From Acidobacteriaceae bacterium KBS 83 (GTDB lineage Bacteria > Acidobacteriota > Terriglobia > Terriglobales > Acidobacteriaceae): DNA of 64,000 bases. A program made the translations under genes and the position numbers. The stretch covers positions 418,836 to 482,835 of the forward strand of contig KB906735.1 in the NCBI GenBank assembly GCA_000381585.1. Direction: 5' to 3'. Under the pieces are notes generated by a model. It had not been told where the DNA came from and made no database searches. It worked only from the letters and a program-made list of their open reading frames with translations. Below, piece after piece: positions 5,331 to 40,947 of the stretch; position 1 is the first letter of the stretch, and each line of letters opens with the position of its first letter.

Positions 5331-5372
5331 GAACTTTATCGATCTCTCTTCGGACATCTGTTTACTGATATG

Positions 5373-5390: not shown

Positions 5391-5420
5391 AGCATACGCA
5401 ACGAAGATTTCGCTTGACAA
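5391..5420 (-). promoter_or_regulatory. Sigma70-like promoter of GH30-GH3 operon
   Basis: On the minus strand TTGTCA (5415-5420) and TATGCT (5391-5396) are 18 bp apart. The expected start of transcription near 5384 leaves a 5' leader of 27 or 54 nt before the two candidate start codons. This excludes the longer open frame that begins at 5456. Confidence 0.45.
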
Positions 5421-16874: not shown

Positions 16875-16881
16875 GGAGACG

Positions 16882-18321
16882 GTGCCCACTGCGCGCATGA
16901 GCCGGCCACCCAATATCGTGGCCATCGACCTAGGTGCCGAGAGCTGTCGCGTCTCCCTGCTGCAGTGGAACGACGACGTCCCGCAAATTGACGTGATTCA
17001 ACGCTCGAGCAATGGTCCTGTCGCTCGAGGCAACTCGCTCCATTGGGACCTGCAGAAGCTGATCAACGAAGTGAAAGTGGGCCTGCGGCTGTGTGCCGAA
17101 AGGACACACGGCCCCATAGCGTCCATCGGAGTTGACGGGTGGGCGGTGGACTATGTTCGGCTCAACCAAGACGGTGTGCCGATTGGCGCAGCCTTTTGCT
17201 ACCGGGATGAGCGGACGATGGCCAGCGAAATGGCGACTGAGAAAGCATGTCCGGCAGCATTTCTCTATCGGCATACTGGCGTGCAGCCGCTTCGCATCAA
17301 TACGCTTTACCAGCTTGTTGCCGACGGACAAGCGGGTGTTCCAGCGCATTATCGCTGGGTAAATCTGCCGGAGTATGTACTCTCGCAACTAGGCGGCCGG
17401 CTTGTCTCGGAGTTGACCAACGCCGCTCACACCGGACTCCTGGATGCGCGTGCGAATACGTGGAACAAAGAGGTCTTCGACCGGGCTGGACTCGACCTTG
17501 AAGCGGCGCCTGAGCTCGTTGCGACCGGGACTGATATTGGCACCGTAAGCGCCGATTTGCGGATGCTTCCGCCGTTCGCAAAGACACGGTTAATCGCGCC
17601 AGCCTGCCATGACACGGCGTCGGCGGTTGCGGGGATTCCGGCGGAAGGCGATGCGTGGGCGTACATCAGCTCCGGTACGTGGTCATTACCTGGCTCGCTT
17701 CTCGATCAGCCTATTTTGGCAGAAGACGCGCGCATTGCGGGATTCACCAATCTGCGGGCTGCTTGCGGCCGATATTGCTTCCACAAGAACGTGAATGGCA
17801 TGTGGCTATTGAAACAGGTCGAGAAGCAGCTTTGTCTTCGAGGGAATGCGTGGAGCATTGCGGAGGTGATTGCAGCAGCAGAGGGGACACCAACACCGCA
17901 GGGTTTGTTAAACGTGGATGATCCGCGACTGCTGGTGCCGGGCAAACTCGCATCGCTGATCAACCAGCAGCTTCTGGAGCAGGGCGTCTCGGCCGTTCCA
18001 GAAGACGAATCTTCTCTCCCCGCGTTTGCAAGTCTTATCTTCCATAGCCTCGCGCATCGGTATGGCGAGGTTCTGCGTGATCTGGTGCGGCTCACCGGAT
18101 GCACGCCTGAACGGATCTATGTTGTGGGCGGCGGGAGTCTGAATTCCCTACTGAATCGGCTGACGGCCGAAGCAACTGGTTTGCCGCTCTCCTGTGGGGT
18201 AGTCGAAAGCTCGACCATCGGAAACTTCGCCGTACAGCTTGCCTCGCTCGAAGGCGCATTGTACGAACGTGACAGAATTCGCCATTGGGCGAAACTGCTC
18301 ACTTCTTCCGCTGAGTGCTGA
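16882..18321 (+). CDS. rhaB: Rhamnulokinase
   Basis: An FGGY-family sugar kinase of about 479 residues that phosphorylates L-rhamnulose at C1. Seen: N-terminal ATPase motif AIDLGAESCRVSLLQW; substrate-loop GVDGWAVDYVRLNQDG; the domain-II ISSGTWSLPG; and the nucleotide-binding VVGGGSLNSLLNRLTAEATG near residue 415. Start is uncertain: GTG 16882 follows AGGAG by only 3-4 bases, while ATG 16897 (MSRPPNIVAIDLG) also fits the family. It closes the operon rhaI-rhaDE-rhaB and converges on kdpC with 6 bp between stops. No rhamnose regulator is encoded alongside. Confidence 0.93.
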   Translation: MPTARMSRPPNIVAIDLGAESCRVSLLQWNDDVPQIDVIQRSSNGPVARGNSLHWDLQKLINEVKVGLRLCAERTHGPIASIGVDGWAVDYVRLNQDGVPIGAAFCYRDERTMASEMATEKACPAAFLYRHTGVQPLRINTLYQLVADGQAGVPAHYRWVNLPEYVLSQLGGRLVSELTNAAHTGLLDARANTWNKEVFDRAGLDLEAAPELVATGTDIGTVSADLRMLPPFAKTRLIAPACHDTASAVAGIPAEGDAWAYISSGTWSLPGSLLDQPILAEDARIAGFTNLRAACGRYCFHKNVNGMWLLKQVEKQLCLRGNAWSIAEVIAAAEGTPTPQGLLNVDDPRLLVPGKLASLINQQLLEQGVSAVPEDESSLPAFASLIFHSLAHRYGEVLRDLVRLTGCTPERIYVVGGGSLNSLLNRLTAEATGLPLSCGVVESSTIGNFAVQLASLEGALYERDRIRHWAKLLTSSAEC

Positions 18322-25477: not shown

Positions 25478-25502
25478 TCGATTCAGGTCGCATGTCATTT
25501 TC

Positions 25503-25514
25503 GTGTACGTTACC
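25503..25514. promoter_or_regulatory. Candidate LacI-type operator O2
   Basis: GTGTACGTTACC, an imperfect dyad around a central CG, differs from O3 by one base and is followed by GTTTTT as is O5. It overlaps the furthest upstream GTG of the DUF5107 frame, which argues that translation begins later, at 25593. Confidence 0.6.
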
Positions 25515-25592
25515 GTTTTTGGTCATTCTTCTATTTTGAGTGCTTCCGGCTATGCTCTATCTATTCCGGAACGCAAGACGTTGAGCAACGGC

Positions 25593-28500
25593 ATGCGCGA
25601 AGAATCTTGTTCGCTTCCATTTCGCCTGGAGCTTCCGCCAGCGCCTCTTGAAGAGAGTGCTGCGGTCAAGGTTTGGCGGCAACCGGTCGTCATGAAGAGC
25701 TACCTGCCTCGTCCTCCCGACCGTAATCCGATGTTCCTTGAGACACGCGTGTACCAGGGCAGTAGTGGCCGGGTTTACCCAATTCCGTTTGTTGACCGCA
25801 TTGCCGAAACTGCGATCGACCAATCCTGGGAGGCAGTGCATCTTGAGAACGCGTATCTGCGATTGATGGTGCTGCCGCAGATTGGTGGACGTATTCATGT
25901 TGGTTTCGACAAGACCAATGATTACGACTTTTTCTACCGGCAGAACGTGATCAAGCCGGCGCTTGTTGGTCTGGCGGGACCGTGGATCTCCGGCGGCGTG
26001 GAGTTTAACTGGCCGCAGCATCATCGTCCCGCGACATTTATGCCTGTAGAGACGGAGATCGAACGCCATCCGGATGGTTCCGTCACGGTGTGGTGCAGCG
26101 ATCACGATCCGATGCAACGCATGAAAGGGATGCACGGTGTCTGCCTGCATCCGGAGCGAGCTGTGGTCGAGCTCAAGGTGCGGCTCTACAACCGTACGCC
26201 GTACCAACAGACATTCCTATGGTGGGCAAATGCCGCTGCGCGCGTCCACGAGAAGTATCAGTCTTTTTTCCCGCCCGACGTACGTTATGTTGCCGATCAT
26301 GCGAAGCGCGCAATTACGTCGTTCCCGCACAGCGACCGTCCCTACTATGGTGTGAACTATCCGGATCGTGCCCGTGACGGAGTTCCGGAAGAACAGCAGC
26401 CCCGTCAGTTCCGTCCTGACGGTTCTTACGCAGCAGACGATCTGAGCTGGTATGCAAACATTCCGGTGCCGACCAGTTACATGATTACGTCCACCAAAGC
26501 AGATTTTTTTGGTGGCTATGACCATCGCGCACAGGCCGGCGTGCTGCACATCGCCAATCACCACATCGCGCCAGGCAAAAAACAGTGGACCTGGGGAAAT
26601 CATGAGTTCGGTTATGCGTGGGATCGCAGTCTGACAGATGCGGATGGCCCTTATATCGAGTTAATGGCCGGGGTCTACACAGACAACCAGCCGGACTTTT
26701 CTTTCCTGTCTCCAGGAGAGACGAAGCACTTTTCGCAGTTCTGGTATCCCCTGCATCGCATTGGACCCCCTCAGGCAGCGTGCCTGAAGTGCGCGCTCAG
26801 CCTGACGGCGACAGAGCATCAGGTCAGGATAGGCGTGCAGGCAACGGAGGACCTGGACGACGTAACCGTGACGTTGACACGCAGGGGAGTCGTTGCCGCG
26901 GAGTGGACCCAGAACATCCGGGTAGGCATCCCGCTGACCGTCGAGCACGCAGTTGTCATCCCTACAGACGAGACTGATCTTGCTGTCACCGTGACGGAAG
27001 CGAATGGTGTTCTCCTGCTCCACTATGCTCCTGGCGAAGTCATTTCCGCGCCCGCGCCCACGGTAGCGACGGAACCGCCGGAACCCGAATGTATCGCGAC
27101 TAGCGAGGAGCTCTATCTCACTGGCCTTCATCTGTCGCAATACCGCCACGCGACGCGACGGCCGGAGGTCTATTGGCAGGAGGCACTGCGCCGCGATCCG
27201 TTCGACGCGCGCGCAAACACCGCGCTGGGCGCGTGGCACATAGAGCGCGGAGAGTTCATAGCTGCGGAGACGCTACTGCGCAAAGCGATTCAGCGGCTCA
27301 CTATGTTCAATCCGAATCCTGAAGATGGACGATCGTTCTACCTTCTGGGGCTGACGCTTCGATTCATGGATCGACTGGCGGACAGTTACGACGCTTTTTC
27401 GAAAGCTACCTGGAATGCAGCCTGGAAGTCTGCAGCCCACTATGCATTGGCGCAGGCAGATGCAGCCGCGGGTCGACGGGGGGCAGTTCTTCAGCATGGA
27501 CAGCTCAGCTTGGCATCGGGCGCCGATCACCTCAATGCGCGCAATCTTTGCGCGCTTACACTTCGCGCGCTTGGCCGCGAGAATGAAGCGCACGCTATGC
27601 TGGCCGAGACGCGCGCGATGGATCCGCTCGATCACTGGAGCCGTCACCTGGCCTTTGAAGAGGTGCCTGCAGACAACCGCGTTTTGCTGGATTTGGCCTG
27701 GGACTACGTTTATTGCGGTCAGGTGGACTGCGCCATTGGCCTACTCCATGCTGGGGACATGCAATGCCTCGACGGCAGCGTGCCAATTCTGCAATACACG
27801 CTCGGATATCTTTTGCACCGTGTGAAACGTACTGATGAAGCCGAGTTGGCCTGGCAGCGCGCCGCCGCTGCCAGGCCAGACTACTGCTTTCCACATCGCC
27901 TAGAAGAGATGTTGGTCCTTCAGGCTGCATCCGAGGCGGTCGCACACGATGCGCGCGCCCCCTACTACCTTGGCAATCTGCTCTATGACCGGCGACGCTA
28001 CGATGAGGCGATTTATCACTGGAAGCGCGCAGCGGGGCTTGATCCTGCATTTCCCACCGTGCACCGCAACCTTGGCATTGCGTTGTTCAATGTATGCGGT
28101 GATGCCGAAGCAGCCATGGCCGCCTTTGATCGCGCGCAGATCGCCGATCCGACGGATGGTCGCATTCTGTATGAGCGCGATCAGCTCTGGAAGCGTACGG
28201 GAGTCGCCCCTCAGCGGCGTCTCGCAGAATTGTTGAGACATGCGGATCTCGTGGCGTCGCGGGACGATCTGTCAGTCGAGGTTGCAACGCTTTACAACCA
28301 GACCGCCGCGCCGGAACACGCGCTCGCGCGATTGCTCTCACGCAATTTTCAGCCGTGGGAGGGCGGCGAAGGCTTGGTTCTCGGACAATATGTGCGCGCT
28401 CGCCTGCTGCTGGCGCGGCGCGCGATAGCGGCTCAAAAACCTGCCGACGCGATCATGCACCTCGAAGCTGCGCTCGATCCTCCACAATCGCTTGGAGAAG

Positions 28501-29033
28501 CACGCCACCTCCTTGCCAACAAGAGTGATATTGAATATGCACTGGGTGTCGCTCATGCCGCTGCGGACCATCCGCAAGAGGCAGAGCGCTGGTGGAGGCG
28601 AGCGGCAAGAGAGGCCGGCGATTTCCAGCAGATGAATGTTCTTACCGTCTCAGATATGACTTACTGGCGAGGTGCGGCGCTCGAAAAGCTACAACAGCCT
28701 GAGCAGGCCGAGCAGGTTTTCCGCCGCATCGCCGCATATGCTGACGAGCTCGAAATGCAGGAGCCGAAAATCGATTACTTCGCGACATCACTGCCCACCA
28801 TGCTGCTCTTCCGAGAAGACTTGGGCCGTCGCCACCATGTGCTTGCGGCCTTCCTGCGTGCCCAAGCCACCTACGGCTGCGATGGTGTGGAGGCTGCTGT
28901 TCCAATGCTGCGCTCTGTGCTCAAACTGGACAGCAATCATCCCGGCGCATCTGATCTGCTTCAACAGGCTGAGCTCGGGTTAGGTGAAGCACCCGCACAA
29001 ACCGACCAAAGCAACACTTCAAAGCTGAGATGA
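25593..29033 (+). CDS. DUF5107 domain plus TPR protein, giant
   Basis: An approximately 1146-residue protein of no proven function. The N-terminal third (about 40-390) is a DUF5107 domain resembling the galactose-mutarotase / aldose-epimerase beta-sandwich fold (RLMVLPQIGGRIHVGFDKT, GGVEFNWPQHHRPA). The rest is a chain of about 15 TPR-like helices (FDARANTALGAWHIERGEF, YYLGNLLYDRRRYDEAIYHW, FPTVHRNLGIALFNVCGDAE). No signal peptide is visible, so it is probably cytoplasmic. I use ATG 25593; a GTG at 25503 would put the operator inside the gene. Its TGA overlaps the transporter ATG (ATGA), so the two are one transcript. A role in processing or binding the imported sugar is inference. Confidence 0.85.
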   Translation: MREESCSLPFRLELPPAPLEESAAVKVWRQPVVMKSYLPRPPDRNPMFLETRVYQGSSGRVYPIPFVDRIAETAIDQSWEAVHLENAYLRLMVLPQIGGRIHVGFDKTNDYDFFYRQNVIKPALVGLAGPWISGGVEFNWPQHHRPATFMPVETEIERHPDGSVTVWCSDHDPMQRMKGMHGVCLHPERAVVELKVRLYNRTPYQQTFLWWANAAARVHEKYQSFFPPDVRYVADHAKRAITSFPHSDRPYYGVNYPDRARDGVPEEQQPRQFRPDGSYAADDLSWYANIPVPTSYMITSTKADFFGGYDHRAQAGVLHIANHHIAPGKKQWTWGNHEFGYAWDRSLTDADGPYIELMAGVYTDNQPDFSFLSPGETKHFSQFWYPLHRIGPPQAACLKCALSLTATEHQVRIGVQATEDLDDVTVTLTRRGVVAAEWTQNIRVGIPLTVEHAVVIPTDETDLAVTVTEANGVLLLHYAPGEVISAPAPTVATEPPEPECIATSEELYLTGLHLSQYRHATRRPEVYWQEALRRDPFDARANTALGAWHIERGEFIAAETLLRKAIQRLTMFNPNPEDGRSFYLLGLTLRFMDRLADSYDAFSKATWNAAWKSAAHYALAQADAAAGRRGAVLQHGQLSLASGADHLNARNLCALTLRALGRENEAHAMLAETRAMDPLDHWSRHLAFEEVPADNRVLLDLAWDYVYCGQVDCAIGLLHAGDMQCLDGSVPILQYTLGYLLHRVKRTDEAELAWQRAAAARPDYCFPHRLEEMLVLQAASEAVAHDARAPYYLGNLLYDRRRYDEAIYHWKRAAGLDPAFPTVHRNLGIALFNVCGDAEAAMAAFDRAQIADPTDGRILYERDQLWKRTGVAPQRRLAELLRHADLVASRDDLSVEVATLYNQTAAPEHALARLLSRNFQPWEGGEGLVLGQYVRARLLLARRAIAAQKPADAIMHLEAALDPPQSLGEARHLLANKSDIEYALGVAHAAADHPQEAERWWRRAAREAGDFQQMNVLTVSDMTYWRGAALEKLQQPEQAEQVFRRIAAYADELEMQEPKIDYFATSLPTMLLFREDLGRRHHVLAAFLRAQATYGCDGVEAAVPMLRSVLKLDSNHPGASDLLQQAELGLGEAPAQTDQSNTSKLR

Positions 29034-30472
29034 GCGTGCAGTATGCTCTGCCGGCCGCATCGCCCGTCGAACCAGACGCACCGCGGCTTCGACTTGGCTA
29101 TCTTCTCTGGATCGCCGCTGTTGCAGCACTAGGTGGATTCCTTTTCGGCTATGACTGGGTCGTGATCGGCGGTGCAAAGCCGTTCTATGAAGCATATTTT
29201 CACCTTACAACGGATACGCTTATCGGCTGGGCCAATAGCTGCGCCCTGGTGGGCTGCCTTGCAGGGTCGCTTCTTTCCGGCATGATCGGCGATCGATTAG
29301 GCCGTAAGCGTTCTCTCCTCCTCGCTGGCGCGCTATTCGCCATCTCCTCCGTATTCACCGGTTGGGCGTTCTCATTTTCCGCATTCATCACATGGCGCGT
29401 TGTGGGCGGGCTCGCCATCGGCCTTGCTTCAAACATCTCACCTATGTACATCGCCGAGATCAGTCCAGCGCAGTGGCGTGGCCGACTGGTCAGTCTTAAT
29501 CAGCTTGCGATTGTCTGCGGCATCCTTGGCGCACAGATTTTCGACTGGCAGATTGGCACACGCGGCGCGCGGCTCTTGCATGGATCGCTTTCAACCATGG
29601 CATGGAACGCGCATTTTGGATGGCGCTGGATGTTTACCGCAGTTGCCGTCCCTGCGTTGCTGTTGTTCTTTCTGGCCGGGATCATTCCGGAAAGCCCCCG
29701 CTGGTTACTATCCCATCACCGGATGGCCGACGCGGAGTCCGTCCTTGCACGCATGGGCGGACCCGATTATGCGGGCGCCATGATGCGTAGCATTACGGAA
29801 CATCTGCAACACGATCGCGCGCAGCAAACGGGCTGGCGGGAGTTAGCGTCACCCGGCGTACGACGCCTGGCGTTTATTGGGATCGGGCTTGCTGTGCTGC
29901 AGCAATGGAGTGGCATCAATATCCTCTTCAACTACGCGGAAGAGGTGTACCGGAGCGCCGGCTACGGGGTGAATGACATTCTGTTCAATATTGTGATCAC
30001 CGGCGCGATCAACCTGGTCTTCACAATGTTGGCCATGCTTTTTGTCGATCGCATCGGACGCCGCTTCCTGATGTTGCTTGGTTGCGCCAGCGTGGGCATC
30101 GTCCATTTGGCACTGGCAATTGTGTACCACCTGCATTTGCGTGGCCTGCCCATTCTCATCCTTACGCTGTGCGCCATCGGCTGCTATGCCATGACGCTCG
30201 CGCCGGTCACCTGGGTCCTGATCACCGAGATATTTCCCAATCGCCTTCGTGCGAGGGGCGTTTCGCTGGCTGTTTCCGCGCTTTGGGCGTCTTCCTTTCT
30301 GCTCACGTTCTCGTTCCCCGCGCTGACTCACGCCTTCGGTCAGTCGGGAGCGTTCGTGGTCTATGGCGTGACGTGCCTCGTAGGTTGGCTGTGTGTGCGA
30401 GCCCTGGTGCCGGAAACGAAGGGACGCAGCCTGGAACAAATCGAAGAGCAGATCGGCGACGTAGCGAACTGA
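29030..30472 (+). CDS. MFS sugar porter
   Basis: A 480-residue, 12-helix sugar:H+ symporter-type transporter. The sugar porter signatures are all present: GFLFGYDWVVIGG at helix 1, DRLGRKRSLLL between helices 2 and 3, IAEISPAQWRGRLVSLNQLA, PESPRWLL at the central loop, QQWSGINILFNYAEEVY in helix 7, DRIGRRFLMLLG, and PETKGRSLEQIEEQ after helix 12. This family carries xylose, galactose, arabinose or glucose; sequence alone does not say which. It is translationally coupled to the DUF5107 gene and converges on the LacI gene, leaving 8 bp between. Confidence 0.92.
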   Translation: MSVQYALPAASPVEPDAPRLRLGYLLWIAAVAALGGFLFGYDWVVIGGAKPFYEAYFHLTTDTLIGWANSCALVGCLAGSLLSGMIGDRLGRKRSLLLAGALFAISSVFTGWAFSFSAFITWRVVGGLAIGLASNISPMYIAEISPAQWRGRLVSLNQLAIVCGILGAQIFDWQIGTRGARLLHGSLSTMAWNAHFGWRWMFTAVAVPALLLFFLAGIIPESPRWLLSHHRMADAESVLARMGGPDYAGAMMRSITEHLQHDRAQQTGWRELASPGVRRLAFIGIGLAVLQQWSGINILFNYAEEVYRSAGYGVNDILFNIVITGAINLVFTMLAMLFVDRIGRRFLMLLGCASVGIVHLALAIVYHLHLRGLPILILTLCAIGCYAMTLAPVTWVLITEIFPNRLRARGVSLAVSALWASSFLLTFSFPALTHAFGQSGAFVVYGVTCLVGWLCVRALVPETKGRSLEQIEEQIGDVAN

Positions 30473-30480: not shown

Positions 30481-31578
30481 TCAGGCACCACGGGCTTCGA
30501 GCGCGCTTGTGACACGGGCCTTGCTGCGAACGCGATCGGCAAAGAGCGGTAGATTACTGCGAAAGACCGTATGGGGCGCAAGCCGCGTCGCACGCTCCGG
30601 ACGTATGCGCTCCACTAGATAGCGGAGAAGTATCTCGAAGGCAGTCTTGCCCTGCGCAAACGGCCGCTGATACAGCGTTGCAAGGATGCGGCCGCCTTCC
30701 AGCAGCGGAATGAGTTCCGGAAACAGATCCGTGCAGAGCACCTGCACTTTGCCGAGTAGTTGCTGCTCCTCCAGAACGCGCAGCACCGGCAAACTGTTCG
30801 CCGTGCTCACGTAGATGCCTGCAATCTCCGGATGGCGTTTGAGCAGGTTGCGCGTCTGTCGCAATGCCTCCTGCGGGCTTTCGTGCGACTCTACAACGGG
30901 CAGCAAGGAGAGATGCGGTGCAAGGAGCGCGAGGTTAGCCGCGAAGCCACGCAGCTTCTCTGCGTGGTCCAGAACGTGAAGCTCGCCGGTGATCATTGCA
31001 ACACTGCCGCTGCGTGGAATGGTGTGGCCGAGCAACTCGGCGGCGAGGGCACCGCTCACGTATGCATCAACCGAGACGGCGGTCATGCGCTCGCTATGGG
31101 GTGCATCGCTGGCGACGCATACCATTGCGGTGCCGGAGCGGCTCAGCCGATTGATCACCGGCTCCGACTTTGCGGGATCGCCTGGCGTGAAGATGACTCC
31201 GTCAAAACGGCCATCTGGAATGGATTCAAGCAGGGCAAGGTCGCCCTCACCCATCCGCGGATAGGTACGGTATTCGACATCCATCTCAACGCCAAAGACG
31301 CTGTCTGCGGCGGACCTCACGCCTTCGAGCAACGGCGTGAAAAATGAGTGGATCTGTTCCGGCAGATACACTGCGATGCTCAATCGCCGGTTCAGTTTCA
31401 GATTGCGGGCTGCTAGATTCGGCCGGTAGTTGAGCTTCTGTGCCATCGCCAGCACGCGCGCACGGGTCTTCGGGTTCACACCCGCGCGATCGTGAAAGGC
31501 GCGATCCACGGTTGCAATCGAGATCCCCAGCGCGCGTGCCACATCCTTGATGCCTGCCGGCTTCTTTCCCCTATCCAT
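30481..31578 (-). CDS. LacI-family transcriptional repressor
   Basis: A 365-residue regulator. The N-terminal helix-turn-helix is IKDVARALGISIATVDRAFH with hinge helix YRPNLAARNLKLNR, then a periplasmic-binding-protein-like effector domain (about 65-345; RFDGVIFTPGDPAKSEPVIN, AMITGELHVLDHAEKLRGF, AGIYVSTANSLPVLRVL). The TVDRAF variation in the recognition helix is a little unusual, where TVSRAL or TVSRVL is common. It is divergent from the TonB receptor and shares its control region with three candidate operators, so it very likely represses itself, the receptor and, at 25.5 kb, the DUF5107-transporter operon. Effector sugar unknown. Confidence 0.92.
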   Translation of the reverse strand: MDRGKKPAGIKDVARALGISIATVDRAFHDRAGVNPKTRARVLAMAQKLNYRPNLAARNLKLNRRLSIAVYLPEQIHSFFTPLLEGVRSAADSVFGVEMDVEYRTYPRMGEGDLALLESIPDGRFDGVIFTPGDPAKSEPVINRLSRSGTAMVCVASDAPHSERMTAVSVDAYVSGALAAELLGHTIPRSGSVAMITGELHVLDHAEKLRGFAANLALLAPHLSLLPVVESHESPQEALRQTRNLLKRHPEIAGIYVSTANSLPVLRVLEEQQLLGKVQVLCTDLFPELIPLLEGGRILATLYQRPFAQGKTAFEILLRYLVERIRPERATRLAPHTVFRSNLPLFADRVRSKARVTSALEARGA

Positions 31579-31634
31579 GCCACAGGCATCGTAGCGCAGC
31601 TACGCGACTTTACGGTTATGCTTCGTCGTCATTC

Positions 31635-31646
31635 GTGCACGTTACC
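31635..31646. promoter_or_regulatory. Candidate LacI-type operator O3
   Basis: GTGCACGTTACC, 57 bp upstream of the lacI-type start codon, placed for autoregulation. It matches O2 in 11 of 12 bases and O4 in 11 of 12. Confidence 0.6.
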
Positions 31647-31703
31647 GCTAAAGTCCGACATCGAGGATCATTTTCGGAGTGCGAGCGTCAGCAAATTGCG
31701 GTC

Positions 31704-31715
31704 GTGCACGCTACC
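31704..31715. promoter_or_regulatory. Candidate LacI-type operator O4
   Basis: GTGCACGCTACC, 69 bp from O3, preceded by the same TC as O2 and O3. Spacing of several helical turns would allow looping between sites. Confidence 0.55.
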
Positions 31716-31752
31716 TGATGAAAAGAATCTAGATTGTTTCCGCCCAAACCGC

Positions 31753-31839: not shown

Positions 31840-34800
31840 ATGCAATCTACGCGCAGATGCAGTTTCTCCCTGGGCTCATGGCTTATTCGCATCACTTTGC
31901 TCATCGGTGTCTTGAGCAATCTGCCCGCGACAGTGCTGGCCCAAATGGATCAGGGGACGATCACAGGCACTGTGCTCGACAATACCGGCGCTGCAGTACC
32001 GGGCGCGGCGGTTTCGCTGACGAGTGTCGATACCGGTTTGACCCTGAACTCCACTACCGATGGCTCGGGAGGCTACACCTTTTCGCCGGTCAAGATCGGC
32101 AATTACAAGCTGTCGGCCAAGGCTGCGGGCTTTTCCACCGCAGTGCAGGACAATGTCCATCTCAGCATCCAGCAGCGGCTTGAAGTGAACCTCCAATTAA
32201 AGCCCGGCACAGCCACGCAAACCGTCGAAGTAACTACCGCACCCCCATTGCTCCAAACGCAAAGCGGTTCGACCGGCCAGGTGGTCGATGCAGCGACAAT
32301 CAATGCAACACCCCTGAATGGACGCAACTGGGTCTTTATCGCGCAACTTACCGCGGGGGTTGCGCCGGCGAATGGCGCGCGCGGTCAGGGTAAAGGCGAC
32401 TTCAACGCAAACGGCCAGCGCGCGGAACAGAATAACTTCATTCTCGACGGCGTAGACAACAACACGAATGCCGTCGACTTTTTGAACGGCGCCAGTTTCA
32501 GTGTCCGCCCGCCGCCGGATGCGCTTGCCGAGTTCAAGGTCCAGACGGGCAGTTACAGTGCGGAGTTCGGCCACTCCGCCGGCGCTGTCGTCAATGCCTC
32601 CATCAAATCCGGTACCAATCAAATTCACGGCGACCTTTGGGAATATTGGCGCAACGACGTTCTGGATGCCCGCGACTACTTTGCAACCAGCGTTCCCAAG
32701 TATCGCCAGAACCAGTTCGGCGCCACGCTCGGTTTTCCCATCATCAAGGACAAGCTCTTCTTCTTTGGCGACGTCGAGGCCAATCGCATTTTGTTTGCAG
32801 CGCCCAGCGTCACCACTACGGTGCCCACGCCTCTCATGCGCCAGGGCAACTTCTCCGAGTTGCTGAACACTAACCTAACCGGCTCCGCACAGCCGGTGCA
32901 GCTCTATCAACCCAACAGCGCCAACCCGGCGACGCCGTTGGCCTGCAACGGCCAGAACAACGTGTTCTGCCCGAACCAGATCAGCGCCATAGCGCAGAAG
33001 ATCCTTAATCTCTATCCGCTGCCCAACATCAACGGCGGGAAGACCTATTCGAACTACGCGGTCCAGCGGCAGATCACCGACAATACCTGGCAATGGGACA
33101 CGCGCATGGACTGGAACATCAGTCAGCACGATCAGGCCTTCGCCCGCTTCAGCTATCTCAACGAGCCGGCGTTCCATCCCGCCCCGCTCGGTCCCATTCT
33201 GGACGGCGGCAGCTATGGCGATGACGGCAATTTGAAGAACTTCGGCGAAAACTTCGCCGGCAGCGAAACGCACGAGTTCAACAGCAGCCTGATTAACGAG
33301 TTCCGCTTCGGCTACAACTACGGGCATTTCAGCAACACGCAGCAGACCGCCGATGAGAACACGGCGGCACAGGTGGGACTCGGCGGCATACCGTTTGCGC
33401 CACTCAATGGCGGACTTCCGGCAACCTCCATCACCGGCATCTCCTCCTTCGGCGCTCCGGAGTTCTATGCCGCGAATGAGTATCAGAACATCTTCCAGAT
33501 TCTCGATAACGTCACGAAGGTGGCTGGCCATCATACGCTGAAGGCAGGAGTGAACTTTCAACGCAGCCGTTTCTACACACTTGCGCCCACAGCGCCGCGC
33601 GGAGCTTACAGTTTCACCGGCCAGTTCACTGGCATTCCCGGGCAGAGCTTCACCGGATTCGGCGTCGCCGACTTTCTAGCCGACCAGATCGCGACCGCGC
33701 AGATCTCCAATCTCGCCGGTGTCGATCAGTACCGCTGGACCCGCGCGGCGTACTTCGAGGATGATTGGAAAGCTCTGCCGCGCCTAACGCTCAACCTCGG
33801 TCTCCGCTACGAGTTTGTGACACCGCCCATCGAGCGTCACGACCGTCAGGCTGCATTCGAGATTACCGGGCCCATCGGTCCCGGCACGGGCTCAGGGGTC
33901 TTCCACCTGCCAGCCAGCCAGCGATCCACTCCACTACCGGCATCCTTCCTCGACCTCCTCGCCAAGGACAACGTCACGGTCAGCTACTCGAACAATCGCG
34001 CGCTGGTCGATCCGCAGTACGCCAACTTCGGACCACGCATCGGTCTGGCCTACACGCTTAAGAATCGTCTGGTCCTTCGTGGTGGTTACGGGATTTTCTT
34101 TGGGGGAGCAGAGAGCACCGGTGGCGCACCGAATCTCGGGTTCAACTTCCCCTTCCAGTTCACCTCGTCCCTCTATAGTCCCGACTGTGCAATCAACAAT
34201 TGCCCCAGTAGCGGCATCACGCTGGAGAACGGCTTCACGCAGCAGATCAATGAAGGTTTGGTTAACTCAGCAACGTCGCCCACGCTGGTCGGCTCGCAGC
34301 ATCTGGTCCAGACCACGTACAGCCAGCAATTCAATCTCGCTCTGGAGTATGCGCTCTCGAACAATCTCACCGCTTCAGCTGCATACGTAGGGTCGAACTC
34401 GCGGCATCTGTCGGTATCGCCGGACGGCAACGCCTCCGCCGCACTGATTGCCCCGGGATTGAATGCGAACCTGGTGCGGCCTTTCCCGGATCTCGGCACT
34501 ATCTACTACAACTTGTACGAGGGCACCGGCAACTACAACGCGTTGCAGACCAAGCTGGAGCGCCGCTTCGCCTCGCACCTTAGCTTCCTTGCAACGTACA
34601 CATACGCCCACTCCCTTGACGATGCGACGACGCCGCTCGGGAGCAATGGCGATGGCGGCTATCGCAACGTCAATCTGATTGGACTCTTCGGCGACTACAG
34701 CAATTCGCCCTGGGACACGCGGCATCGCTTTACCTTCAACGGCACTTACGAGCTGCCCTTCGGCAACGGCCGGCGCTTCCTCAATCATGGTGGAGTGGTG

Positions 34801-35352
34801 AACCAGCTTGTTGGCGGCTGGTCCAATACGCTGGTCTTCCGCGCGCAGACCGGGCAGCCTTTCACCGTTTACAACAACAACTCTGCGGTTAACGGCGGAA
34901 ACTCGCGCGCCATTCTGGTGGGCGATCCCTTCAAGGGCGGCGGTTCAGCAAACCCAACAAATCCCGGAGTGGATTGCCCTGCCAAGGTCCGCACCGTCGC
35001 CAACTGGTATAACCCCTGCGCTTTTGCGAATCCGCCAGATGGCAGCGTCATCAGCGGGAACGAGCAGGTCACGGGCGATCAGGCCCTCTCGCTTTTGGGT
35101 GGGCGACGCAATCAGGCATTCGGCCCGGGATATGAGCGCATCGACATGTCGATCTTCAAAGCTTTCCCGATCCTTCGGGAGCAGTCGCTGCAGTTTCGCG
35201 CCGACGCGTTCAACCTGCTGAACACGCCGTCTTATGGAACACCGAATGGCAGTATCGGGTCGAATGGCGGCCAGATCACGAGCGCTCGCAACTTCCAGCC
35301 CAACACACCGGATGCACGCTTCTTCCAACTGGCACTGAAGTACATCTTTTAA
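31840..35352 (+). CDS. Oar-like TonB-dependent outer-membrane receptor
   Basis: A 1170-residue outer-membrane receptor, the second in the window and of the same architecture as the first. Seen: signal peptide ending LPATVLAQ; carboxypeptidase-regulatory-like domain (residues 40-125, GTITGTVLDNTGAAVPGAAV); plug (INATPLNGRNWVFIAQLTAG, INFILDGVDNN-type NNFILDGVDNNTNAVD); and a beta-barrel ending FFQLALKYIF with the terminal aromatic residue. It is probably the uptake gate for the sugar handled by the neighbouring porter, DUF5107 protein and GH59 enzyme, under the LacI repressor. No SusD partner. Ligand unknown. Confidence 0.92.
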   Translation: MQSTRRCSFSLGSWLIRITLLIGVLSNLPATVLAQMDQGTITGTVLDNTGAAVPGAAVSLTSVDTGLTLNSTTDGSGGYTFSPVKIGNYKLSAKAAGFSTAVQDNVHLSIQQRLEVNLQLKPGTATQTVEVTTAPPLLQTQSGSTGQVVDAATINATPLNGRNWVFIAQLTAGVAPANGARGQGKGDFNANGQRAEQNNFILDGVDNNTNAVDFLNGASFSVRPPPDALAEFKVQTGSYSAEFGHSAGAVVNASIKSGTNQIHGDLWEYWRNDVLDARDYFATSVPKYRQNQFGATLGFPIIKDKLFFFGDVEANRILFAAPSVTTTVPTPLMRQGNFSELLNTNLTGSAQPVQLYQPNSANPATPLACNGQNNVFCPNQISAIAQKILNLYPLPNINGGKTYSNYAVQRQITDNTWQWDTRMDWNISQHDQAFARFSYLNEPAFHPAPLGPILDGGSYGDDGNLKNFGENFAGSETHEFNSSLINEFRFGYNYGHFSNTQQTADENTAAQVGLGGIPFAPLNGGLPATSITGISSFGAPEFYAANEYQNIFQILDNVTKVAGHHTLKAGVNFQRSRFYTLAPTAPRGAYSFTGQFTGIPGQSFTGFGVADFLADQIATAQISNLAGVDQYRWTRAAYFEDDWKALPRLTLNLGLRYEFVTPPIERHDRQAAFEITGPIGPGTGSGVFHLPASQRSTPLPASFLDLLAKDNVTVSYSNNRALVDPQYANFGPRIGLAYTLKNRLVLRGGYGIFFGGAESTGGAPNLGFNFPFQFTSSLYSPDCAINNCPSSGITLENGFTQQINEGLVNSATSPTLVGSQHLVQTTYSQQFNLALEYALSNNLTASAAYVGSNSRHLSVSPDGNASAALIAPGLNANLVRPFPDLGTIYYNLYEGTGNYNALQTKLERRFASHLSFLATYTYAHSLDDATTPLGSNGDGGYRNVNLIGLFGDYSNSPWDTRHRFTFNGTYELPFGNGRRFLNHGGVVNQLVGGWSNTLVFRAQTGQPFTVYNNNSAVNGGNSRAILVGDPFKGGGSANPTNPGVDCPAKVRTVANWYNPCAFANPPDGSVISGNEQVTGDQALSLLGGRRNQAFGPGYERIDMSIFKAFPILREQSLQFRADAFNLLNTPSYGTPNGSIGSNGGQITSARNFQPNTPDARFFQLALKYIF

Positions 35353-35385: not shown

Positions 35386-35398
35386 CACCCTCTGATTG

Positions 35399-37366
35399 AT
35401 GCATAAAAAAATCTCGATCGCGGTCCTTTTATCCTCGCTTCTCGGCACTACCGGGGCTCTTGCGCAGTCCGTCTCGGTCACGATTGATCCCGTTGACCCC
35501 GGCAAAACCTTCGATGGCTTTGGCGCAGTTAGCGCCGGGGCATCCTCACGGCTGCTCTACGATTATCCGGAGCCATATCGCTCGCAGGTTCTCGACTACC
35601 TTTTCAAGCCTGATTACGGAGCCGCTCTGCAGCATTTAAAGGTGGAGATCGGCAGTGACGTGAACTCCACCGATGGCTCCGAGCCGAGCCACATGCGTAC
35701 TGCTCAGGACAAAAACTTCACTCGCGGCTACGAATGGTGGCTCATGCAGGAGGCTCATCGCCGGAATCCGAAGATCATCCTGGACACACTGGCGTGGGGG
35801 GCGCCTGGATGGATCGGCAAGGGCACGCTTTACACGCCGGCGATGGCACATTATTCGGCAGTCTTTCTCAATGGCGCGGAGTCGCAGTATCACCTGAATA
35901 TTCCCTACACGGGCATCTGGAACGAGAAGCAGTTTGATGCACAGTATGTGAAGACCCTGCGCAGCGTGCTAGATAAGGAGCGGCCCGGCGCCAAGATCGT
36001 GTGCTGCGACGAGTACCCGCATGAAGGGCTTGGGCAGTGGAGCATTCTTGACGCCATGCGTAAGGACCCGGCACTCGCCAAAGCAGTCGACTTCGTGAGC
36101 GTCCACTACCCTCGAGAGAAAGGCAAGCTCACCACGCCCGCCGATGCCGTCGACGCCGGCAAGCCACTGTGGTCCAGCGAAGATCAGCCCGAGTCGAGCG
36201 CCTCAATCATTCTTTCGCGTGACTGGGCCATTGGCGGCCGCAGCCTCGCACATCTCTATAACGAGAATTACCTCGAAGGCCACTTCACCAAGACAGAGAT
36301 TTGGAGCCCGGTCACTTCCTACTACGACATCCTTGCCGCGCCGAACTCCGGCCTGATGTATGCGAACACTCCCTGGTCCGGCCACTACGATGTGCAGGGA
36401 GCCATCTGGGCGACAGCGCATACCACTCAGTTCGCAGATCCCGGCTGGCGCTACCTGCAGAACGCCTCAGGACAACTCACCCCCGGCAGCTACGTCACAC
36501 TCGCCGCGCCCAATGGCCACGACTGGAGCATGGTCGTCGAAACCATCAACAGCAAGCAGCCGACCAGGATGACCGTCGTCATAAAAGGCCCGCTTGGTCA
36601 CGACGCGCTTCACGTATGGGAAACGAACCACAAGCGCACCTTTGAGCATGTGGGCGATATCGCGCCACACGACGGCAGCTTTGTTTACACGTTCGAGCCG
36701 GACTCGCTCTATACCATTACCACCACGGTCGGCCAGCATAAGGGCACTGCCGTACCTCCGCCCAGCAAGCCGTTCCCACTTCCCTATCGTGATTCGTTCG
36801 AAAAAACGCCGCTGCTGCGGTCCGCCGCCTATCTCTCCGACCAGGACGGCGCCTATGAGGTGCATCCGTGTGTCGGACGACCAGGCAAGTGCCTGGAACA
36901 GGTCATTACGCAGAAGCCGATTCCGTGGGGACCAATTCCCGATCCCTGGACGCTGGCTGGAGACATTCACTGGACCGATTACACGGAGCGCACGGACTTC
37001 AGCGTTCCGGCAAATGGCATCGCGACCCTGATAGGCCGTATCGATTCAGCCGATGTATTTGCTGACGGCAACGCCCGCTATCCCAGCGGATATGTGCTGC
37101 GCGTGCAGGCGGACGGGCATTGGGCGCTGCTAGCGACCGCTTACAAAAAGGCTGAGAAGCAGTTGGCCGCGGGTGAGACCGCCGTGGATGCAACGCGATG
37201 GCACAAGATGGAATTGCGCTTCCACGGGAGCGGCATTCAAGCCGCAATTGACGGAAAAACCGTAGCAGAAGTCCAGGACCAGACGCATACCCACGGAATG
37301 ATCGGCATCGGTTCGGGCTGGAACCATACAGCGTTCGATAACCTCGCCGTCGATACATCCGAATAG
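35399..37366 (+). CDS. GH59 galactosylceramidase-type beta-galactosidase, exported
   Basis: A 655-residue exported glycosidase of family 59, the family of galactocerebrosidase (GALC). Seen: Sec signal (KKISIAVLLSSLLGTTGALAQ); FDGFGAVSAGASSRLLYDYP opening of the TIM barrel; acid/base Glu176 in GIWNEKQFDAQYVK; nucleophile Glu261 in LWSSEDQPESS; the beta-sandwich; and a C-terminal lectin-like concanavalin-type domain (about 465-650; ending HTAFDNLAVD). This copies the animal GALC domain order in full. In a soil bacterium a galactan, arabinogalactan or galactolipid is as likely a substrate as galactosylceramide. The start is ATG 35399; a TTG three bases upstream is less likely. It lies 46 bp downstream of the receptor and is probably co-transcribed. 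Confidence 0.9.
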   Translation: MHKKISIAVLLSSLLGTTGALAQSVSVTIDPVDPGKTFDGFGAVSAGASSRLLYDYPEPYRSQVLDYLFKPDYGAALQHLKVEIGSDVNSTDGSEPSHMRTAQDKNFTRGYEWWLMQEAHRRNPKIILDTLAWGAPGWIGKGTLYTPAMAHYSAVFLNGAESQYHLNIPYTGIWNEKQFDAQYVKTLRSVLDKERPGAKIVCCDEYPHEGLGQWSILDAMRKDPALAKAVDFVSVHYPREKGKLTTPADAVDAGKPLWSSEDQPESSASIILSRDWAIGGRSLAHLYNENYLEGHFTKTEIWSPVTSYYDILAAPNSGLMYANTPWSGHYDVQGAIWATAHTTQFADPGWRYLQNASGQLTPGSYVTLAAPNGHDWSMVVETINSKQPTRMTVVIKGPLGHDALHVWETNHKRTFEHVGDIAPHDGSFVYTFEPDSLYTITTTVGQHKGTAVPPPSKPFPLPYRDSFEKTPLLRSAAYLSDQDGAYEVHPCVGRPGKCLEQVITQKPIPWGPIPDPWTLAGDIHWTDYTERTDFSVPANGIATLIGRIDSADVFADGNARYPSGYVLRVQADGHWALLATAYKKAEKQLAAGETAVDATRWHKMELRFHGSGIQAAIDGKTVAEVQDQTHTHGMIGIGSGWNHTAFDNLAVDTSE

Positions 37367-37435: not shown

Positions 37436-38281
37436 ATGGCGCGATCTACATGGCAAGGACAGATTCAGATCTCTCTCGTCTCGTTTGGAGTTAGCATTGT
37501 GCCGGCAAGCACCTCGGCTCGGCAGGTGGCATTTCACGAAGTCGACCGCAAAACCGGCGAACGAATTCACCACCGCAAAACCGCCGCGGACGACGAAGCG
37601 GTCGAGGCGGAGGACGTCGCCAAAGGATTTGAATACGAGAAGGGCAGATACCTCGTGATCGAACCGGAGGACCTCAAACGCCTTCGACTTCCCGGACAGA
37701 AGACCGTGACCCTTGAGCACTTTGTCCCACGCGACGACATTGATCCGGCGTTCTTCGAGCGTCCGTACCTTCTTGTTCCCAAGGATGACGCGCAGGCTCG
37801 CACCATGGCCACCATCAGCCGGGCGCTTCGAGAAAGCGGACGTGTGGGATTGTCGGAGATCACCTTCAGCGGACGGGAGCACTTCGCCGCTTTTGCGCCG
37901 CCAACCGACAGTGACTCACCATGGCTCAACATGTACCTGTTGCGCTATGAGGAGGAACTCCGCGATCCTGCCGACTACTACAAAGACTTTAAGAAGCCCA
38001 CGGTCGATAAAAAACAACTCGCCATGGCGGAGCAGCTGATTCGATCCTATAGCGAGAAATTCGAACCGACGGCGTTCAAGGACGACTTTGAAACGGCGCT
38101 GCGTGAATTCGTCCAGGCAAAACTTGCCAACAAGCCCCTGCCGAAGCGTCCTCCGGAAGCGAAGGCTGGGAAAGTGATTGACCTGAGGGATGCTCTGAAG
38201 CGCTCTCTGGCTGAGCGCAAGAACGGACATGCCGCTGCCGGACATGCGAAGTCCAAAACGCGCCGAAATAAGGCCGCCTGA
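37436..38281 (+). CDS. ku: Non-homologous end-joining protein Ku
   Basis: A 281-residue bacterial Ku, which forms a homodimer ring on DNA ends and recruits LigD. Seen: SFGVSIVPASTSARQVAFHE, the conserved KGFEYEKGRYLVIEPEDLKR, and VPRDDIDPAFFERPYLLVPK, then a lysine-rich C-terminal tail (HAAAGHAKSKTRRNKAA), usual in soil bacteria and thought to aid DNA threading and ligase stimulation. It overlaps ligD by one base (TGATG), so the pair is co-translated. A two-gene Ku-LigD system is common in desiccation-prone soil bacteria. Confidence 0.95.
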   Translation: MARSTWQGQIQISLVSFGVSIVPASTSARQVAFHEVDRKTGERIHHRKTAADDEAVEAEDVAKGFEYEKGRYLVIEPEDLKRLRLPGQKTVTLEHFVPRDDIDPAFFERPYLLVPKDDAQARTMATISRALRESGRVGLSEITFSGREHFAAFAPPTDSDSPWLNMYLLRYEEELRDPADYYKDFKKPTVDKKQLAMAEQLIRSYSEKFEPTAFKDDFETALREFVQAKLANKPLPKRPPEAKAGKVIDLRDALKRSLAERKNGHAAAGHAKSKTRRNKAA

Positions 38282-40947
38282 TGCCAGCGCGCACGAAACC
38301 AACAAAGAGCCCCGCCGCGGCGGTCGATGCACAACTCGCCCGCTATCGCGAGATGCGCGACTTCTCACACACGGCAGAGCCTCGCGGCGCCGCAAAGGAT
38401 ACAAAGGCGGCAGCAGATGGTCTCCCGTTCGTTATCCAGAAGCATGCGGCGACGCGGCTGCATTATGACTTCCGCCTCGGCTGGAACGGCGTGCTGAAGA
38501 GTTGGGCAGTTGCCAAAGGACCAAGCTACGTCGTAGCGGACAAACGACTCGCCGTTCAAGTCGAAGACCATCCCATGGAATACGGCGGCTTCGAGGGAAC
38601 GATTCCAAAGGGCCAGTATGGCGGCGGCACCGTCATGCTGTGGGACACGGGGACGTGGGAACCCGTTGGCGATGCCAATGAAGGCTTCCGCACCGGACGT
38701 CTCAAATTCATCCTGCAAGGACATAAGCTCAAAGGCCACTGGACGCTGGTACGCATGGGCGGCAAGGCCGCGAAGGAATCCAAGCCGAATTGGCTGCTCA
38801 TCAAGGAGCATGACGAGTACGAGCGATCCGCCGATGCGCCCGCGGTTGTCGATGAAGAACCGGACAGCGTCATCACACATCGCGATTTGGAGGCGATCGG
38901 GAGCGCCTCCGACCACGTGTGGGACTCGCGTACGGGCCTTGCCGCTGACGAACGGGCCAGATCGGCGGGCGCAAAGATAAAGGCCACGAAAAAACTAAGC
39001 AGCATTGCTATTCCGAAGGGTGCAAAGGCAGAGTCGTTGCCCAAGTTCATTAGGCCCCAGCTCGCCGCCTCGGCGGAGCTTCCTCCTGTTGGCAAAGATT
39101 GGCTCCACGAATTGAAGCTCGATGGCTATCGGATGCAGGCCCGGCTGGAGAATCACAAGGTCCAGCTGCTGACCCGCAGCGGGCTCGACTGGACGCATCG
39201 CATGCGTTCCCTTGCAACTTCGCTCGAGGCAATCCCGGCGAAGGCGGCGCTTCTGGATGGCGAAGTGATCGTGCTCGATGAGCGAGGCATCAGCAGCTTC
39301 GCCGCGCTGCAGGCAGCATTTCAGGAAGGAGCCAAACATGCGCTGCATTACTACGTCTTCGATCTGCTGCACCTCGACGGCCACTCTCTGTGCCAACTTC
39401 CGCTGATCGAGCGAAAGACGTTGCTCGGCGATCTCATTGAGGGCTTAGACGACGATGCAATTCGACTGAGTGAACACGTCCGCGACGAGCAGGCGGCCAT
39501 CTTCGATGAAGTCTGCCGCCACGGTGCTGAGGGAATCGTTTCGAAACGCGCCGAAAGCCAGTATATCTCCGGTCGCACCGCAAGCTGGGTGAAGGTGAAG
39601 TGCGGATTGCGGCAGGAGTTTGTGATCGGCGGCTTTACCTTGCCTTCAAAAGGCGGCGAAGGGCTTGGCGCGTTGCTCCTTGGCTACTATCAGGACGGCA
39701 AGTTTATCTACGCTGGCCGAACCGGCACTGGATTTACGCAGAAATCTCAGGCACAGATTCGCATGCGGCTGGAATCTATTCGTTCGGATACGAATCCCTT
39801 CCTTGCCATCGGCACCGCGGAGCGCCGCGGAGCTCTGTGGGTGAAACCTCAACTCGTCGGGGAGGTCGCTTTCAGCACCTGGACCGCCGATAACCTGGTG
39901 CGCCAGGCTTCCTTCAAAGGTCTGCGAGAGGATAAGCCGGCGACCGAAGTCGTTCGAGAAAAGGCCGCGACAGGAATACCAAATGCGCGCGCCGCCTCCA
40001 GTGCAGGCAAAGGCCGTGCCCACGCCGCAACCTCCTCCAAAGTTCAAACGTCTGCTCTGCCTCGCGTCACGCATCCGGACAAGATTGTCGACCGCGAATC
40101 CGCGCTTACCAAGGAGCAACTCGTCACCTACTACGCCGAGGTAGCGAGCCACATACTGCCGCACATCTCGGACCGCCCTTTGAGTATTGTGCGTTGCCCT
40201 TCCGGCACTGCGGCGAAGTGTTTTTTCCAGAAGCACGTGAAACCGGGGCTCCCCAAGGGAATCGGCTCAGTCGAGATTGTGGATCGTAAGAGCGGAAAAC
40301 CAGAGCCGTACATCATCCTCTCCAACGCGGATGTCATTCCGGAGCTCGGCCAGCTTAACGTCTTCGAACTGCATCCATGGGGCTCGCCGGCCAGCGACTT
40401 CGAGCATCCTGATCGAATCATCTTCGATCTCGATCCCGATGCAAGCATTGAATGGAAGACACTAGGGGACACGGCCTCTGAAGTTCGATCACGTCTCAAG
40501 AAGCTTGGCCTCGAATCTTTCCTGAAGAACACCGGCGGCAAGGGTCTACATATCGTGGCGCCTATCCAGTGTGAACATGACTGGCCCACGGTAAAAGAGT
40601 TTGCGCATCAGTTCGTGCTCGCCATGGAGGCAGACAATCCCTCCCTTTACATCACCAAAATGACGAAGTCCGCGCGCACCGGACGCATCTATCTCGATTA
40701 TCTGCGGAATGAACGCGGCGCTACGGCCGTGGCGCCCTACTCGCCGCGCAGCCGCGCTGGCGTTCCCGTCTCTGTGCCGATGGACTGGAGCGAGCTGAAG
40801 GCATCGGCTCCCCCGCGCTGCCTGGTCGCGAAATTTGATGAGTGGCGCAAGCGCCTGTCCCGTGATCCGTGGGTCGACCTGCCGGAGACAAAGCAGCGGC
40901 TGACCCAGAAGGCCATCGATTCCTTGCGAGCAAAAAAGTCTAAATAG
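38281..40947 (+). CDS. ligD: ATP-dependent multifunctional DNA ligase D
   Basis: An 888-residue LigD with three enzyme modules. Residues about 35-200 are the 3'-phosphoesterase (KHAATRLHYDFRLGWNGVLK, HPMEYGGFEGTIPKGQYGGG). Residues about 255-560 are the ATP-dependent ligase with the adenylated Lys279 in HELKLDGYRMQ and VKVKCGLRQEFVIGG. Residues about 595-885 are the primase-like polymerase (DPDASIEW metal site, VRCPSG, GGKGLHIVAPI). The order PE-LIG-POL is one of the known permutations. It repairs double-strand breaks with Ku. The stop is 12 bp from the convergent nucleotide-sugar dehydrogenase. Confidence 0.95.
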   Translation: MPARTKPTKSPAAAVDAQLARYREMRDFSHTAEPRGAAKDTKAAADGLPFVIQKHAATRLHYDFRLGWNGVLKSWAVAKGPSYVVADKRLAVQVEDHPMEYGGFEGTIPKGQYGGGTVMLWDTGTWEPVGDANEGFRTGRLKFILQGHKLKGHWTLVRMGGKAAKESKPNWLLIKEHDEYERSADAPAVVDEEPDSVITHRDLEAIGSASDHVWDSRTGLAADERARSAGAKIKATKKLSSIAIPKGAKAESLPKFIRPQLAASAELPPVGKDWLHELKLDGYRMQARLENHKVQLLTRSGLDWTHRMRSLATSLEAIPAKAALLDGEVIVLDERGISSFAALQAAFQEGAKHALHYYVFDLLHLDGHSLCQLPLIERKTLLGDLIEGLDDDAIRLSEHVRDEQAAIFDEVCRHGAEGIVSKRAESQYISGRTASWVKVKCGLRQEFVIGGFTLPSKGGEGLGALLLGYYQDGKFIYAGRTGTGFTQKSQAQIRMRLESIRSDTNPFLAIGTAERRGALWVKPQLVGEVAFSTWTADNLVRQASFKGLREDKPATEVVREKAATGIPNARAASSAGKGRAHAATSSKVQTSALPRVTHPDKIVDRESALTKEQLVTYYAEVASHILPHISDRPLSIVRCPSGTAAKCFFQKHVKPGLPKGIGSVEIVDRKSGKPEPYIILSNADVIPELGQLNVFELHPWGSPASDFEHPDRIIFDLDPDASIEWKTLGDTASEVRSRLKKLGLESFLKNTGGKGLHIVAPIQCEHDWPTVKEFAHQFVLAMEADNPSLYITKMTKSARTGRIYLDYLRNERGATAVAPYSPRSRAGVPVSVPMDWSELKASAPPRCLVAKFDEWRKRLSRDPWVDLPETKQRLTQKAIDSLRAKKSK

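Follow-up and report, generated by a model that had tools for sequence, protein, structure and literature searches.

The gene considered here lies on the forward strand at 25593..29033 of a 64,000-nucleotide stretch of the genome of Acidobacteriaceae bacterium KBS 83 (contig KB906735.1, positions 418,836 to 482,835), which was analysed as a whole and is referred to below as the window. It encodes a protein which joins a DUF5107 domain to a long series of tetratricopeptide repeats (TPRs), and it overlaps a gene for a sugar porter of the major facilitator superfamily (MFS). A first-pass annotation made from the sequence of the window had described the product as a 1146-residue protein with an epimerase-like beta-sandwich and about 15 TPR-like repeats, translationally coupled to the porter, and had suggested that it might be a mutarotase-like or sugar-binding scaffold acting on the imported sugar. 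The features of the locus are as follows (GH, glycoside hydrolase family).

25500..25515, + strand: candidate LacI operator TTCGTGTACGTTACCG, 78 bp before ATG 25593
25593..29033, + strand: DUF5107-TPR (YphG-family) protein, 1146 aa from ATG 25593
25656..26762, + strand: galactose-mutarotase-fold domain, residues 22-390 (VIA-align structural matches, hhalign residue pairing, motif order, conservation)
26019-26021, 26229-26231 and 26658-26660, + strand: codons of H143, N213 and E356, in the mutarotase-fold domain
27093..28973, + strand: TPR-type alpha superhelix, residues 501-1127, about 15-17 helical hairpins (Pfam TPR matches, model secondary structure)
28353..28373, + strand: PWEGGEG motif, residues 921-927, in the TPR half, invariant in the 74 rows of alignment A2 (described below)
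29030..30472, + strand: MFS sugar porter of the sugar porter family (Sugar_tr E=1.9e-105; NCBIfam sugar porter family 2e-101, above cut-off)
30481..31578, - strand: LacI-family regulator (Pfam), divergent from the TonB receptor gene
31632..31647, + strand: candidate LacI operator TTCGTGCACGTTACCG, in the LacI/TonB-receptor intergenic region
31701-31716: weaker copy of the operator candidate, in the same intergenic region
31840..35352, + strand: TonB-dependent outer-membrane receptor (OMP_b-brl_4 4.3e-236), which we take to be Oar-like
35396..37366, + strand: GH59 galactocerebrosidase-like enzyme (Glyco_hydro_59 1.1e-105; nearest solved 4ccc, 2.1e-109)

The open reading frame ends at 29033 and could begin either at GTG 25503, which adds 30 residues, or at ATG 25593; because the operator candidate overlaps GTG 25503, ATG 25593 is the preferred start, and it gives the length first reported. 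The proposed coupling also holds, the stop codon TGA at 29031-29033 sharing the sequence ATGA with the ATG of the porter at 29030-29032. The nearest solved relative of the porter is a D-xylose-proton symporter (1.4e-77). A simple hydropathy analysis of the DUF5107-TPR protein detected neither a signal peptide nor a membrane segment (19-residue maximum 1.36), and the protein should therefore be cytosolic.

Fold and site residues

The Pfam model for DUF5107 (PF17128) matches the protein at E=2e-50, with 171.9 bits against a curated cut-off of 24.4, and several TPR models also match. A full-length AlphaFold model built from 74 sequences (mean predicted local distance difference test score, pLDDT, 91.6; predicted template modelling score 0.91) consists of a beta-sandwich to about residue 390, a further beta region to about residue 480, and then helices, 34 of which have at least four residues, lie between 504 and 1127 and form about 15-17 hairpins, in good agreement with the number of repeats originally counted. 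The best mutarotase match of residues 24-390 in VIA-align is 3mwx (Z 24.2, 261 residues, 2.6 A), followed by GalM 4bze (Z 23.7), Lactococcus lactis GalM 1nsu (Z 20.8) and Escherichia coli YphB 3nre (Z 20.8), so that structure prediction confirms the supersandwich (galactose-mutarotase) fold of residues 22-390 in the model and bears out the epimerase-like sandwich which had been placed in residues 1-390. The VIA-align alignment to the solved DUF5107 relative 5cd6 extends over 554 residues (Z 36.3, 3.8 A) and therefore supports the arrangement of the two halves of the model; the Foldseek alignment to the same structure is loose (TM-score 0.51 by target, root-mean-square deviation 21 A). When residues 860-1132 were folded alone (pLDDT 94.3), TPR-like, 14-3-3 and designed helical proteins were among the structural matches listed, with Z of 10.3-11.9, a level which the tool describes as common, and no non-TPR enzyme fold was found among those listed, a result which excludes nothing.

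The published mutarotase site residues are Arg71, His96, His170, Asp243 and Glu304 in L. lactis numbering (PMC5622589). For a related mutarotase, PMC5902678 assigns acid/base roles to the first His and the Glu and a binding role to the second His, residues which can be equated, by their order, with His96, Glu304 and His170. An hhalign comparison of the domain profile with a profile of aldose epimerases from the same loci (probability 96, E 4e-9) pairs H143 with the His of the 'DHG' motif, the His96 equivalent, and N213 with the His of the 'CHP' motif, which is the His170 equivalent by motif. E356 lies in the penultimate strand, in the same E...LxPGE order as in GalM and YphB, and its pairing with Glu304 was made by eye.

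The conservation of these residues was measured in two principal alignments. A1 has 32 rows, comprising the window protein, E. coli YphG and the proteins of 30 of 40 loci which were not chosen by peptide pattern (L052, L055, L057, L061, L062, L064, L065, L066, L067 and L072 were left out). A2 contains the window protein and 73 of the best 80 cross-phylum loci, which had been retrieved with two peptide patterns, one covering the surroundings of E137 and the other those of K329-W334; L085 was omitted as short, L100 as overlong, and L095, L099, L105, L107 and L109 as miscalled by the script that called the open reading frames. A third alignment, A3, retains the window protein and 68 of the 73 A2 loci after removal by hand of L134, L140, L143, L148 and L150. 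N213 is Asn in 74/74 rows of A2 and 30/32 of A1, and E356 is Glu in every row of both (74/74 and 32/32). The His which is kept across the family is H144 (73/74 in A2, 30/32 in A1), since H143, although His in 74/74 rows of A2, is His in 21/32 of A1. E137, K330 and W334 are each conserved in 32/32 rows of A1, and the two acids of PWEGGEG, E923 and E926, in 30/32 and 19/32. N213, E356 and PWEGGEG fall outside both fetching patterns.

The site looks like a changed mutarotase, in which equivalents of Glu304 and His96 appear to be kept and the equivalent of His170 is an invariant Asn. For the conserved catalytic His and Glu which the first-pass annotation had proposed to look for, the candidates are H143, paired by hhalign, and E356, paired by motif and strand order only, and the second His is replaced by N213. 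The aldose 1-epimerase profile PF01263 has no match in the protein at E<=0.01, and by its residues and profile matches the protein is a DUF5107-TPR/YphG protein with a mutarotase fold which stands outside the aldose 1-epimerase family.

Relatives and their gene neighbourhoods

PF17128 has matches at E<=0.001 in 103 of 299 genomes of the class, above the cut-off in 98 of them, and its match in the E. coli control is YphG (b2549). A scan of genome contigs confirmed at least 592 relatives, which rules out an orphan fusion, and the best 80, which were examined, span nine phyla: Acidobacteriota, Verrucomicrobiota, Bacteroidota, Actinomycetota, Bacillota, Pseudomonadota, Planctomycetota, Armatimonadota and Chloroflexota (assigned from record titles). 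The window protein is an acidobacterial relative of YphG, in a family found in at least nine phyla; a midpoint-rooted FastTree tree of 41 proteins places YphG as the sister group of the window protein's clade. Of 5426 complete E. coli genomes, 5369 carry yphG, with 80% or more of the gene at a single place, and the annotation of its product is DUF5107 protein only. The earlier remark that the protein has no place in any pathway yet described survives to the extent that no function for YphG or DUF5107-TPR proteins was found in the literature searched, and it must be modified in that the protein belongs to a family and is not unique. The sole DUF5107 paper found lists the domain as unknown (PMC8163842), and levoglucosan is reported to have raised YphF in an engineered strain (PMC8753852); PMC9308461, PMC10434189 and PMC10994844 contributed nothing further. 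The genome of the window has a second DUF5107-TPR copy, from another clade, on contig 5 (locus L048); two neighbours of that copy were scanned, a DNA polymerase X-type protein and a phage-tail-sheath-like protein, and the stretch has a GH92 marker match.

Among the 41 acidobacterial loci, a porter of the same family lies directly downstream on the same strand, with a gap of -25 to +15 bp, in 17, the window included, and all 17 belong to the window's clade. In the cross-phylum set, which consists of the best 80 relatives and includes many stretches shorter than 20 kb, 27 loci have a porter within 100 bp on the same strand, and the porters within 200 bp of the DUF5107 gene are upstream in 26 cases and downstream in 5. 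The coupling of the two genes is more than chance. Many Bacteroidota loci have the porter upstream of the DUF5107 gene and an AraC-type gene divergent from it (one member of the cluster was scanned).

The wider neighbourhood was evaluated by searching 20-kb stretches for marker proteins with tblastn (hits with E below 1e-15 that cover 35% or more of the marker) in 18 loci of the window's clade, the window included, in 20 DUF5107 loci of other clades and in 20 background stretches of the clade-carrying genomes; L039 and L064 were dropped because no anchor was called and L072 as a fragment, and gene calls came from a simple longest-open-reading-frame script. In clade, other-clade and background loci respectively, the porter was found in 17/18, 0/20 and 0/20, the LacI regulator in 15/18, 0/20 and 0/20, the TonB receptor in 16/18, 9/20 and 1/20, any of GH97, GH27, GH36, GH59 and GH35 in 17/18, 2/20 and 1/20, any listed glycosidase in 18/18, 3/20 and 4/20, and an aldose epimerase of either kind in 7/18 (the window's own locus not among them), 0/20 and 0/20. 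The glycosidases of the 18 clade loci are GH97 (10), GH36 (7), GH59 (4), GH27 (3), GH95 (3), GH35 (1) and GH92 (1). Fisher values for these comparisons (1.9e-7, for example) overstate independence, because the loci are related by descent and two of them, L034 and L052, are very alike. Of the 80 cross-phylum loci, 46 have a porter of the family, 54 have at least one listed glycosidase and 15 have an aldose epimerase. One protein of each of three glycosidase families was sampled: the GH97 protein is nearer to the retaining alpha-galactosidases 3a24 (4e-99) and 5e1q (4e-98) than to alpha-glucosidases (9e-70 and weaker), the GH36 protein is nearest to alpha-galactosidases (4fnq), and the GH59 protein is nearest to galactocerebrosidase 4ccc. 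The genome of the window encodes a galactokinase on another contig, and two aldose epimerases elsewhere.

The operator motif was obtained by setting the two promoter regions of the window against each other; a scan of the clade promoters for palindromic operators found no common one. At up to three mismatches the window contains four matches, compared with 0.61 expected, and none of 100 shuffles reached four, but the fair test of the motif lies in the other loci, because two of the window matches defined the pattern and a further one, at 47650, is probably due to chance. With up to two mismatches the 17 other clade loci contain 19 sites, whereas the 20 other-clade loci and the 20 background stretches contain one each, and with up to three mismatches the corresponding counts are 31, 11 and 5. 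In 12 of the 17 other clade loci a site at the looser threshold precedes the called DUF5107 start by no more than about 240 bp, and others coincide with or precede the starts of GH97, GH36, GH59 or TonB genes; L046 has no site, and the only one in L047 is inside the DUF5107 gene. A search of 14 genomes gave 14 occurrences of the exact 14-base core, spread over 10 of them (four have none), compared with one of the reversed pattern, and 13 of the 14 occurrences are within 14 kb of a DUF5107 gene by coordinates, the exception being in G155. In the assembly of the window the exact core is present at two places only, the promoters of the DUF5107 gene and of the TonB receptor/GH59 genes. We infer that the LacI protein would bind these candidate sites. 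The other-clade and background controls for markers and operator rule out a chance neighbourhood, and the conserved gene order and the shared operator together strongly support, at the level of gene context, a link between the DUF5107-TPR protein and the imported sugar.

Several observations concern neighbouring regions and other clades. The GH59 marker is found in 4/18 clade loci and 1/80 cross-phylum loci, and directly behind the GH59 gene of the window, at 37436-40947, are Ku and LigD genes, a bacterial end-joining pair. The TonB receptor clusters with a second one at 5737-9042; near the latter, at 1586-5456 on the minus strand, are GH3 and GH30 enzymes, together with a TPR protein and an FG-GAP/UnbV protein, and by its gene content this region is a second glycan locus in the window. 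A class II aldolase fused to a short-chain dehydrogenase and followed by an FGGY kinase (14652-18321) is what we take to be an L-rhamnose pathway pair. In loci of other clades, an AgaS-like isomerase is present in L054, L055, L059, L061, L062 and L072, PfkB kinases and a DeoR regulator in some, a DeoC/LacD-type aldolase in L059 and L061, and GH27 with a NagB-like gene in L066 and L067. These genes provide hints of amino sugars or tagatose-type routes, to which little weight is given because the NCBIfam isomerase, kinase and deaminase matches all fall below their cut-offs, the best for the kinase being an inositol-pathway kinase.

Candidate functions and known systems

The favoured reading, to which we assign a probability of roughly 0.45, is that the DUF5107-TPR protein is a cytosolic sugar-processing member of a galactoside-use module controlled by LacI. 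It would most likely be an enzyme, distinct from a plain GalM, whose point of action is the anomeric (reducing) end of a galactose-type sugar after import; the substrate would most likely be galactose or a galacto-configured relative, and may be arabinose. Secreted galactosidases would free the sugar, the TonB receptor and the MFS porter would import it, and the DUF5107-TPR protein, translationally coupled to the porter, would act on it inside the cell. The sugar would occupy the mutarotase pocket, with E356 as the base on the anomeric hydroxyl, H143/H144 assisting and N213 binding only, while E923 and E926 of PWEGGEG might close over the site and provide the missing acid/base function, the outcome being either a reaction other than simple anomer exchange or a tighter specificity. 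The more ambitious form of this proposal, that the DUF5107-TPR/YphG proteins constitute an undescribed enzyme family in which the site is formed by two halves, a mutarotase pocket with His replaced by Asn and the acidic motif of the TPR half, and which is specialised by clade for particular sugars (galactose-type here) and made in step with the importer, we regard as doubtful.

Several results weigh against the favoured reading. Forced profile alignments did not yield the pairing of E356, which rests on eye, motif and strand order, and hhalign comparisons with profiles of GalM, YphB and YeaD gave no usable alignment. Invariance in A2 is partly circular inside the two patterns by which its loci were fetched. 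Across phyla, the five galactosidase-type families occur in 28 of the 80 loci, 11 loci have no marker at all and 8 have the porter only; the commonest enzymes are of GH2 (GH2a in 26/80, GH2b in 24/80), whose nearest solved relative, 8u01, names no substrate, and GH95 and GH92 also occur among the loci.

The main rival, which we consider unlikely, is a non-catalytic sugar-binding scaffold or sensor, in which the domain would hold imported galactose and the TPR half would serve as a docking surface for the porter, for the regulator or for downstream enzymes. Protein binding is the usual role of TPR superhelices, one mutarotase residue is replaced by Asn, the gene is tightly coupled to that of the porter, and chains 9grx_2 and 7wff_b of the chloroplast NDH complex are among the structural matches of the mutarotase fold, which therefore occurs in larger assemblies. 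Docking to a single partner fits poorly, however, with the fact that YphG, which adjoins an ABC importer and not an MFS porter, keeps these motifs, and many charged and aromatic residues appear among the invariant ones.

A galactose mutarotase in the strict sense, extended by TPRs and supplying galactokinase with alpha-galactose, is a distinctly weaker candidate. The predicted fold, the apparent retention of the Glu304 and His96 equivalents and the presence of a galactokinase in the genome all suit it, as does the binding rather than acid/base role of the second His (the His170 equivalent by order) in PMC5902678; it must nevertheless accommodate Asn at that position in 74/74 rows, the lack of a PF01263 match at E<=0.01, the separate aldose epimerases in 7/18 clade loci, beside YphG and at two places elsewhere in the genome, and a TPR half of about 630 residues which would be superfluous for a mutarotase. 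Of the suggestion first made, the mutarotase-like fold is right and the link to the imported sugar is strongly supported by gene order and shared operator; a plain mutarotase is made less likely by the invariant Asn and the nearby epimerases. A cytosolic glycosidase or lyase which cleaves an imported galactoside with the carboxylate pair E137 and E356 is very improbable, since, although both residues are invariant in A1 (32/32), the mutarotase fold occurs as a domain in glycosidases and lyases and galactoside loci surround the gene, the transporters nearest to the porter are those of xylose and glucose, which are monosaccharide carriers, and the clade loci already contain dedicated galactosidases.

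If the enzyme with a site formed by two halves is real, it would assign a role to yphG, a core gene of E. coli, and to the operon around it, and it would represent an unusual active-site construction which uses a repeat superhelix. The acidobacterial loci add what the E. coli operon lacks, namely enzymes under shared regulation for which solved relatives suggest substrates, and this context narrows the YphG question to a short list of sugars.

The closest known system is that of YphG, a full-length homologue with 35% identity overall, in which the mutarotase-fold domain is the best conserved part (54%, compared with 27-29% in the TPR half), and in which the YphG-clade motifs NWPQHHRP, KKQW (KKQWTWG/KKQWSWG), DNQPDF and PWEGGEG, all present in the window protein, are kept. 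In both systems a sugar importer and a regulator adjoin the gene. The neighbours of yphG are an ABC importer, the YphB aldose 1-epimerase, a zinc dehydrogenase and a NagC-like regulator, with no galactosidase annotation in 20 kb, whereas the window has an MFS porter, LacI, a TonB receptor and GH59 in place of the ABC importer, aldose epimerase and zinc dehydrogenase. In L088 and L092 (Pleomorphomonas and Ancalomicrobiaceae) a YphB-type epimerase lies directly 3' of the DUF5107-TPR gene, and the yphG-yphB pairing is therefore not confined to E. coli; L088 also carries relatives of the YphD and YphE transporter parts. Parabacteroides BDI_1685 (PDB 5cd6) likewise combines a mutarotase-fold domain with TPRs, but its chain of 575 residues is about half the length of the window protein, and its title names no function. 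GalM and the other aldose 1-epimerases of PF01263, YphB included, share the fold across residues 24-390 and, apparently, the Glu304 and His96 equivalents, and they differ from the window protein in the residue at the His170 position, in the profile which they match and in having no counterpart of its large TPR half.

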